From: Patescibacteria group bacterium
GTDB taxonomy: Bacteria > Patescibacteriota > Minisyncoccia > Phycocordibacterales > UBA1006
DNA: 47,634 nucleotides
Assembly: GCA_020428645.1 (NCBI GenBank)
Contig: JAGQMN010000004.1
Span: forward strand, 1 to 47,634
Direction of reading: 5' to 3'
Numbering within the stretch: position 1 is the stretch's first letter; each line of letters begins with the position of its first letter. This document shows, piece by piece, positions 32,470-34,085 of this stretch. The position numbers were made by a program, and so were the translations under genes. A model generated the notes under the pieces. That model saw only the letters and a program-made list of their open reading frames with translations. It searched no databases and had not been told where the DNA came from.

Positions 32470-32478
32470 GTTATCCAC
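32470..32478 (+). promoter_or_regulatory. DnaA-box-like 9-mer
   Basis: TTATCCACA is identical to the strong E. coli DnaA box. It is single, with no cluster or AT-rich unwinding region nearby, so it is not evidence of an origin. Confidence 0.3.
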
Positions 32479-32509
32479 AGTGGTGCAGGGTTTCATGTTT
32501 GCACCATAA

Positions 32510-32545
32510 TGTGGGATGAAGTAGAATACAAGTGGGATGAAGTGG
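32510..32545 (+). promoter_or_regulatory. MraZ-type operator repeats before mraZ
   Basis: GTGGG at 32510 and 32531, with variants GTAGA at 32520 and GTGGT at 32541, are spaced 10-11 bp apart on one face of the helix. GTGGGATGAAGT is repeated exactly at 32510 and 32531. MraZ is known to bind phased TGGG-type repeats in its own promoter; assignment here is by that resemblance. Confidence 0.65.
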
Positions 32546-32622
32546 TAGATAACAGTGAAACATCCACACAAAGTATTCATGTAGCAAAGAATTCTCCGTT
32601 TCACTGTTATCTACCACTTCAT
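32535..32622. repeat. Perfect 26-bp inverted repeat in the mraZ leader
   Basis: Arms 32535-32560 and 32597-32622 are perfect reverse complements with a 36-nt loop. The left arm starts inside the second MraZ-type repeat. No T run follows, so it is not a normal terminator. The smaller hairpin GGTGCA/TGCACC (32481-32504) lies upstream. The rest of the 343-bp gap (to 32747) shows no ORF. Confidence 0.9.
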
Positions 32623-32747
32623 CAATACGGTTTAAAAAATGCCATGGTTGGCATACAAAGATTCGCGAGATCTGAATGTTGAACGAAGGTAGAGGTTGGT
32701 GCACGTGCCATAACGTGTTCGGTGCTCTGCCTTCGATAGAAAGAATT

Positions 32748-33182
32748 ATGTTAATCGGAGAACACAAACACACACTCGATGATAAGAAACGACTATCGCT
32801 TCCGTCAAAGTTTCGCAAAGAACTGGGGAAGACTGTCGTACTTACCAAAGGACTCGATACCTGTCTCTTTGTCTATTCGGTGAAAGAATGGCAAAAATTT
32901 TCAACTAAACTCGGTGAACTCTCGATGGGGCAGGGTGATACCCGTGCCTTCTCTCGATATTTTCTCGGAGGAGCAGTGGAAACCGACATTGATTCTGCTG
33001 GACGTATTCTCATTCCAGATTTCTTAAAGGATCTTGCACATTTAAAATCAAAAGTTGTCGTTGCGGGACTCGGAACACGCGTTGAGTTGTGGGATGAGAA
33101 ACGCTGGGTTGATTACCAAAAGGCGCTTGAAAAGAAAGCTGATGTTGTTGCTGAAAAGCTTGGTGACATTGGAATGATTTAA
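32748..33182 (+). CDS. mraZ: Transcriptional regulator MraZ
   Basis: First gene of the division cluster and its probable repressor. ATG 32748 (MLIGEHKHTLDDKKRLSLPS) gives 144 residues; the frame opens earlier but the family begins here. Two SpoVT/AbrB-type half-domains are visible, each with an arginine-containing turn: LDDKKRLSLPSKFRKEL and IDSAGRILIPDFLKDL. MraZ forms ring-shaped oligomers that bind phased repeats upstream of its own gene, and such repeats are present at 32510-32545. rsmH follows after 6 bp. Confidence 0.93.
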   Translation: MLIGEHKHTLDDKKRLSLPSKFRKELGKTVVLTKGLDTCLFVYSVKEWQKFSTKLGELSMGQGDTRAFSRYFLGGAVETDIDSAGRILIPDFLKDLAHLKSKVVVAGLGTRVELWDEKRWVDYQKALEKKADVVAEKLGDIGMI

Positions 33183-33188
33183 TCGCGT

Positions 33189-34085
33189 ATGTCAGTACAC
33201 ATCCCGGTACTTATGAATGAAGTCGTCGAGTGGCTCGACCTCCATCCCGATGATGTGGTGGTCGATGGAACGATCAATGGTGGCGGTCACGCATCGAAAA
33301 TTGTGTCGTTCCTTGGCTCCAATGGTGTCTTCGTTGGTATCGACAAGGATCGGAATGCACTACATGTTTCAAGTGAACGATTAACTGGCGCACAACCACA
33401 GGTGTACCTTATTCACGGTGATAGTCGTAATCTTGATCTCATGTTAGACAAACAAGGTATTGATCAGATTGATAAGGTGTTACTCGATTTAGGATGGAGT
33501 AGTAATCAATTTGAAGATCCAGAACGGGGATTCTCGTTTAACCTCGATGGGCCCTTGACGATGACGCTTGCTGACGATCCTACCACAGTTCCATTTACTG
33601 CCTACGATGTCGTGAATGATTGGAGTAAGGAATCGCTCATTGATATTCTCGTTGGATACGGTGAGGAACGTTTCGCACGACGTATTGCCAAGGCAATAAT
33701 TGACGCGCGTTCAGTTGCACCTATCACACGGACGCTCCAGCTCGCTGATATTATCAAAAATGCAGTACCTGAACGATTTCGTCACGGACCTATTCATCCC
33801 GCAACACAGAGCTTTCAAGCAATTCGTATCGCAGTAAATGATGAAATGATGGCGCTGAAAGAAATTCTCGAAAAAGGATTTGAACGACTTGCACCGAATG
33901 GAAGAATGGTAGTGATATCATTTCACAGCATTGAAGACCGTATTGTAAAACACTACTTTAGAAGTAAGCACATGGCAGGAGAAGGGAGTGTGCTTACTAA
34001 AAAACCAATTACTGCGACTGATGAAGAACTCGATCTGAACAGACGTTCACGGAGCGCAAAGTTGCGCGTACTACAAAAATTATGA
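33189..34085 (+). CDS. rsmH: 16S rRNA (cytosine1402-N4)-methyltransferase
   Basis: Methylates N4 of C1402 in the ribosomal P site. Product of 298 residues with the MraW/RsmH features HIPVLMNEVVEWL, GTINGGGHASKIV (SAM motif I), LLDLGWSSNQFEDPERGFSF, IHPATQSFQAIRIAVNDE and VVISFHSIEDRIVKHYFR. Near the usual 300-315 residues. Its TGA overlaps the next ATG in an ATGA, so translation is coupled. Confidence 0.95.
   Translation: MSVHIPVLMNEVVEWLDLHPDDVVVDGTINGGGHASKIVSFLGSNGVFVGIDKDRNALHVSSERLTGAQPQVYLIHGDSRNLDLMLDKQGIDQIDKVLLDLGWSSNQFEDPERGFSFNLDGPLTMTLADDPTTVPFTAYDVVNDWSKESLIDILVGYGEERFARRIAKAIIDARSVAPITRTLQLADIIKNAVPERFRHGPIHPATQSFQAIRIAVNDEMMALKEILEKGFERLAPNGRMVVISFHSIEDRIVKHYFRSKHMAGEGSVLTKKPITATDEELDLNRRSRSAKLRVLQKL

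Follow-up and report, generated by a model that had tools for sequence, protein, structure and literature searches.

What does a long, perfect inverted repeat do in the leader of a division operon, where its left arm overlaps boxes of the type bound by MraZ? The question is raised by the window analysed here, a stretch of 47,634 nucleotides from a Patescibacteria group bacterium, in which such a repeat lies between the predicted promoter and mraZ. A sequence-only reading of the window had offered two answers: that MraZ rings hold both arms, or that the repeat serves the division operon as an RNA switch. We compared the locus among related metagenome-assembled genomes of the genus Ca. Campbellbacteria (Paceibacterota), where mraZ and its surroundings were found in 12/12 genomes.

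The predicted mraZ promoter and its MraZ-type boxes

The first gene of the division cluster, mraZ, occupies 32748–33182 on the forward strand (Pfam PF02381, TIGR00242) and is followed on the same strand by rsmH (mraW; 33189–34085, Pfam PF01795), a short open reading frame at the position of ftsL and a penicillin-binding protein. A consensus scan predicts a forward-strand promoter at 32499–32527, with the −35 hexamer TTGCAC (32499–32504), a 17-nt spacer and the −10 hexamer TAGAAT (32522–32527), an arrangement conserved in the 11 aligned leaders that would place the start of transcription at about 32534, the base of the stem.

Three conserved GTGG boxes, putative MraZ sites on the forward strand, begin at 32511, 32532 and 32542, with spacings of 21 and 10. 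Box 1 (GTGGG, 32511–32515) lies within the promoter spacer and is invariant in the genus. Boxes 2 and 3 (32532–32546; GTGGG at 32532, GTGGT at 32542) cover the +1 position and the lower left arm and are likewise invariant, except for GTGGC in G006/G007; the MraZ-type operator that had been seen to overlap the left arm is borne out. Four GTGGG-like sites at 10–11 bp had been counted originally, but the one at 32521 (GTAGA) overlaps the −10 hexamer and is not kept as a GTGGG box. Upstream of the promoter, a DnaA-box-like sequence, TTATCCACA, is present at 32471–32479, and similar sites precede mraZ in most members of the genus and in several sister genera.

The inverted repeat is conserved as an RNA stem

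The arms of the repeat, at 32536–32561 and 32598–32623 on the forward strand, match at 26/26 bp and enclose a 36-nt loop; the perfection of the repeat had been noticed before, albeit with coordinates one base too low (32535–32560 / 32597–32622). The fold energy of the region stands at z −5.6 relative to shuffled sequences, which, together with the recurrence of the stem across the genus, indicates that the repeat did not arise by chance. No T run follows the stem and no terminator-like site, with a GC-rich stem and a T run, is present on the forward strand between the stem and mraZ, in agreement with the view that the repeat is not a terminator. No Rfam 15 family reached its gathering score in the mraZ leader, and none came near.

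The stem occurs at the same position throughout the genus. In an alignment of 11 full leaders (that of G002 ends at a contig end, with the right arm visible), 98.9% of the cells are paired, and pairing falls to 34–55% in a control in which the arms are slid. There are eight doubly changed pairs, a covariation score reached by 0/500 shuffles; conservation and covariation of the arms in relatives had been named as the check on the repeat, and they also rule out a chance origin. Many of the substitutions are to G-U, implying that pairing is maintained at the level of RNA. In sister genera the promoter and boxes are kept but not the hairpin. The mraZ leaders of more distant Paceibacterota (L032, L034, L035, L042) have long hairpins of their own and a common CTCTCCACA-like segment, and do not resemble the hairpin described here.

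These observations bear directly on the proposal that the repeat is a mirrored operator with MraZ rings on both arms. The left arm does overlap invariant boxes and the right arm mirrors one of them in this genome; however, the mirrored box is intact in only 5/12 genomes, while the left-arm boxes are kept and RNA pairing persists, in part through G-U pairs, for which a DNA operator would have no use. This pattern points to selection on RNA pairing and not on a second operator, and makes the two-armed binding of MraZ very improbable. It is even harder to credit a functionless palindrome, produced by a recent template switch or a mobile palindromic repeat, which would account for the perfect arms in this genome but not for a genus-wide occurrence at the same site with compensatory changes, indicative of an old and selected structure; a genome-wide search found a single copy, and this rules out a mobile element of the MITE/REP kind. 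A pseudoknot between the loop and the bases just 3′ of the stem (GUAUU/AAUAC) was also considered and rejected, since a number of relatives lack it and such a contact would hardly form over a stem of 26 bp. The best reading of the comparison is that the inverted repeat is an RNA element and not a doubled MraZ operator, and the alternative guess, that the repeat serves the division operon at the level of RNA, agrees with the conserved pairing of the stem. That guess did not extend to two conserved antisense segments, one in the loop and one downstream of the stem, which probably hold most of the functional signal.

The hairpin loop is complementary to a ribonucleotide reductase leader

The loop segment GUAUUCAUGUAGCA (32573–32586, forward strand) is invariant in the genus, G001 alone differing by one base. 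Its reverse complement was located by exact searches just 3′ of the promoter of an nrd gene, and a 14-nt site complementary to the mraZ loop of the same genome is found in the nrd 5′ leader of 11/11 genomes in which the gene was found (of 12). At positions 1–11 of this site all 121/121 cells are paired with the mraZ loop across the 11 genomes, and the substitutions there are all A to G, opposite U. The copy from G009, which was examined, encodes the small subunit of a class I ribonucleotide reductase with an ATP-cone. The frame matched in G011 (L121) is an ATP-cone open frame of 743 aa, against a small subunit of ∼425 aa elsewhere (L111–L120), and its length suggests that in this genome the loop-complementary leader probably belongs to a different nrd gene. 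Despite the 743-aa frame, the nrd-type leader of G011 carries TGCTACATGGATAT.

The downstream element is complementary to a predicted small RNA divergent from ruvB

The second segment, UUCGCGAGAUCUGA, lies between the stem and the start codon, is almost invariant in the genus and is complementary over 12–25 nt to a small RNA encoded divergently from ruvB. This element, UUCGCGAGAUCUGAUUG (UUCGCGAGAUCUGAAUG in this genome), is present between hairpin and start codon with its first 12 bases identical in 12/12 mraZ leaders, where fewer than 0.1 occurrences per genome are expected by chance. The predicted small RNA target in this genome, AUUCGCGAGAUCUGA (32661–32675, forward strand), can form 15 Watson–Crick pairs with the ruvB-adjacent RNA. 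Other copies of the element are found in the 23S rRNA leader, upstream of ruvB and, in a few cases, inside open reading frames. A search allowing wobble pairs for further complements returned only the known loci and matches at chance level, and in an order-wide search with a 17-mer the exact matches were confined to the genus, with one-mismatch matches outside it at chance level.

The distance from target to mraZ start codon is 10–34 nt in most species and 70 nt in this genome and in G003, so that direct blocking of the ribosome is doubtful in these two. An additional hairpin (CGAAGGTAGAG/CTCTGCCTTCG, window positions 32684–32735) lies between the target and the start codon, and a related insertion was seen only in G003 (L007).

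The small RNA locus (L069:1537-1685; G000:C38:2036-2184) corresponds to a predicted, structured transcript of ∼150 nt. It is present in 10/10 genomes of the genus in which the locus is assembled (ruvB is absent from the assemblies of G006 and G009, which were left out of the count), with a terminator in 10/10 and a TTGACA promoter in most. Its fold is conserved, with 17 doubly changed pairs and 0/500 shuffles reaching the score. Promoter and terminator place the RNA on the strand opposite to the ruvB-side copy of the target, and an RNA transcribed from that strand would carry the complement, CAAUCAGAUCUCGCGAA.

Neither the genus nor the sister-genus versions of this RNA match an Rfam family at gathering score, and there is no match to the 6S model. 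6S RNA, which forms one long hairpin interrupted by a central bubble, had been considered for this RNA; the sister-genus versions are predicted to form a multi-branched junction. A homologue adjoins ruvB in the sister genus represented by G018 (model match, E 6e-6), and RNAs with a similar multi-branched predicted fold, recognised by eye and not by the model, occupy the same position in G013–G016 and G019. Across several genera of the family, structured RNAs divergent from ruvB were recorded at L166, L177–L179, L181 and L182. The locus appears to be a previously undescribed gene for a structured RNA. In sister genera, complementarity of the RNA to mraZ or 23S leaders is weak or not significant; in G018 (L018, L166) nine nucleotides shortly before the mraZ start, CCUCACCAU, complement the genome's own ruvB-adjacent RNA, a run equalled in 13/300 shuffles. 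As the sister genera hold the RNA while the complementary runs there are weak or absent, the gene seems to be older than its pairing with mraZ.

Strength of the predicted pairing

Watson–Crick runs between the small RNA and the mraZ leader measure 12–25 nt, compared with ∼7 in dinucleotide shuffles; runs of this length were obtained in 0/300 shuffles in eight genomes and in 3/300 in G003 and G004. The run in G004 reaches 17 when G-U is allowed, and that in G003, shortened to 12 nt, gains a single pair. In single genomes the longest runs with G-U allowed are poorly separated from shuffles, whereas the Watson–Crick runs are well separated; duplex energies over the whole length were uninformative. 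Loop and target are predicted to be moderately accessible (0.40–0.75 unpaired).

Could these elements instead be DNA sites for one or two transcription factors common to mraZ, nrd, 23S and the gene beside ruvB? A DNA site would work in either orientation, and every copy does lie near a promoter. However, the complement is always on the transcribed strand of the small RNA, with the mraZ and 23S targets both in sense, and where the nrd and small RNA copies vary, pairing is kept by G-U. Furthermore, the match in G007 is lengthened to 25 nt, with both of its RNAs deviating from the others at the flanking positions, and position 18 of the pairing site changes in step, being C-G in G002 and U-A in G001 and G007. 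Most intermolecular positions are invariant among the related genomes, so that a shared protein site keeps some small probability. Taken together, the comparison strongly, if not finally, favours RNA–RNA pairing over a shared DNA site, and we consider the transcription factor explanation decidedly unlikely.

A possible second target in the 23S rRNA leader

The small RNA target is also carried by the 23S rRNA leader in 5/5 genomes with an assembled 23S 5′ end; the 23S gene of this genome is absent from the assembly. The predicted pairing extends over 14–17 nt, and the target lies at the tip of a hairpin beside a terminator-like stem. A riboswitch-like reading, in which occupation of the target would favour the terminator, was examined by folding: with the target blocked, the terminator hairpin formed in only 2/5 genomes. 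The 23S leaders (L154, L187–L194, L196, L197, L199) have a promoter of their own and, in most, a terminator-like hairpin ∼100 nt downstream of that promoter, an arrangement which suggests that transcription of 23S rRNA is attenuated.

A model for the mraZ leader

We think it likely that an RNA hub is formed by the mraZ leader, made up of a 5′ hairpin, an nrd-complementary loop and a small RNA target common with the 23S leader. The proposal builds on the observed sequence, fold, conservation and complementarity, from which we infer transcription, binding, and the direction and purpose of control. Transcription from the promoter overlapped by MraZ-type boxes would start where the stem begins. 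The dcw message would then open with the 26-bp hairpin, and this 5′-terminal structure may protect the mraZ message. The loop could pair with the 5′ leader of the ribonucleotide reductase mRNA and thereby couple the nrd and division mRNAs. Pairing of the small RNA upstream of the mraZ start may lower translation or lead to cleavage of the mRNA, and the 23S leader would serve as a second target or as a sponge. A wider proposal is a three-way circuit, in which the small RNA would pair with the 23S and mraZ leaders and the mraZ loop with the nrd mRNA, such RNA–RNA contacts coordinating the expression of genes for ribosomes, dNTP supply and division; for this extension we find the case evenly balanced.

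Alternatively, the hairpin may only stabilise the mRNA or be processed by RNase III, with no partners in trans and with proteins bound at the loop and the downstream element. Such a role would suit a long stem placed where the message is predicted to begin, and the invariant segments are compatible with protein sites on RNA, but this explanation, which we regard as unlikely, does not account for the presence of the complements in both the nrd leader and the small RNA, nor for their substitutions, which preserve pairing through G-U.

Comparison with known systems

The mraW RNA motif of Actinobacteria is a structured RNA in the leaders of mraZ/mraW operons. The leader described here differs from it in architecture and phylum, and approaches no Rfam family at gathering score.

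MraZ itself is known as a repressor of the dcw cluster (as named in NCBIfam TIGR00242; E. coli work cited in PMC5138195). Like the MraZ autoregulatory operator, the locus has GTGG-type repeats phased at ∼10 bp at the mraZ promoter; unlike it, an RNA hairpin overlaps the operator and the mirrored arm holds no conserved operator. In Sinorhizobium meliloti, the small RNA EcpR1 acts in trans on cell-cycle genes (PMC4414408), but its targets are different, and the abstract of that paper mentions neither a dcw-leader hairpin nor an rRNA-leader target. Our search of the literature on mraZ with sRNAs and on small RNAs of Patescibacteria found no description of an mraZ-leader/small RNA system and, limited as it was, no paper on regulation by small RNA base pairing in Patescibacteria. 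If the model is correct, it would provide a conserved and testable small RNA that pairs in trans in this group, and possibly a means by which cells of very small genome size connect the making of ribosomes, the provision of DNA precursors and division directly through RNA.

The nearest precedent for an sRNA acting on a dcw leader is UpsM/StsR of Rhodobacter sphaeroides, in which the trans-acting sRNA StsR pairs with the dcw leader UpsM, as established by experiment (PMC5089854; PMC8307010 and, cited therein for this pair, Grutzner et al. 2021, doi 10.1093/nar/gkab491). A Rho-independent terminator within that leader sets UpsM free (PMC5089854; PMC8307010). The present locus, in another phylum, lacks such a terminator between stem and mraZ and on this point falls outside the UpsM/StsR type, and an nrd-complementary loop and a common 23S-leader target are not described in the parts of those papers that we consulted. 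In both systems, however, the dcw leader is long and structured, here with a predicted length of ∼110–215 nt and a covarying stem, and a separate small RNA, which pairs with the leader by experiment in UpsM/StsR, is predicted by computation to do so here in the form of the RNA beside ruvB. Should the predicted pairing hold, the mraZ leader of Ca. Campbellbacteria would be a second, independent case of a dcw leader as an RNA target, after UpsM/StsR.
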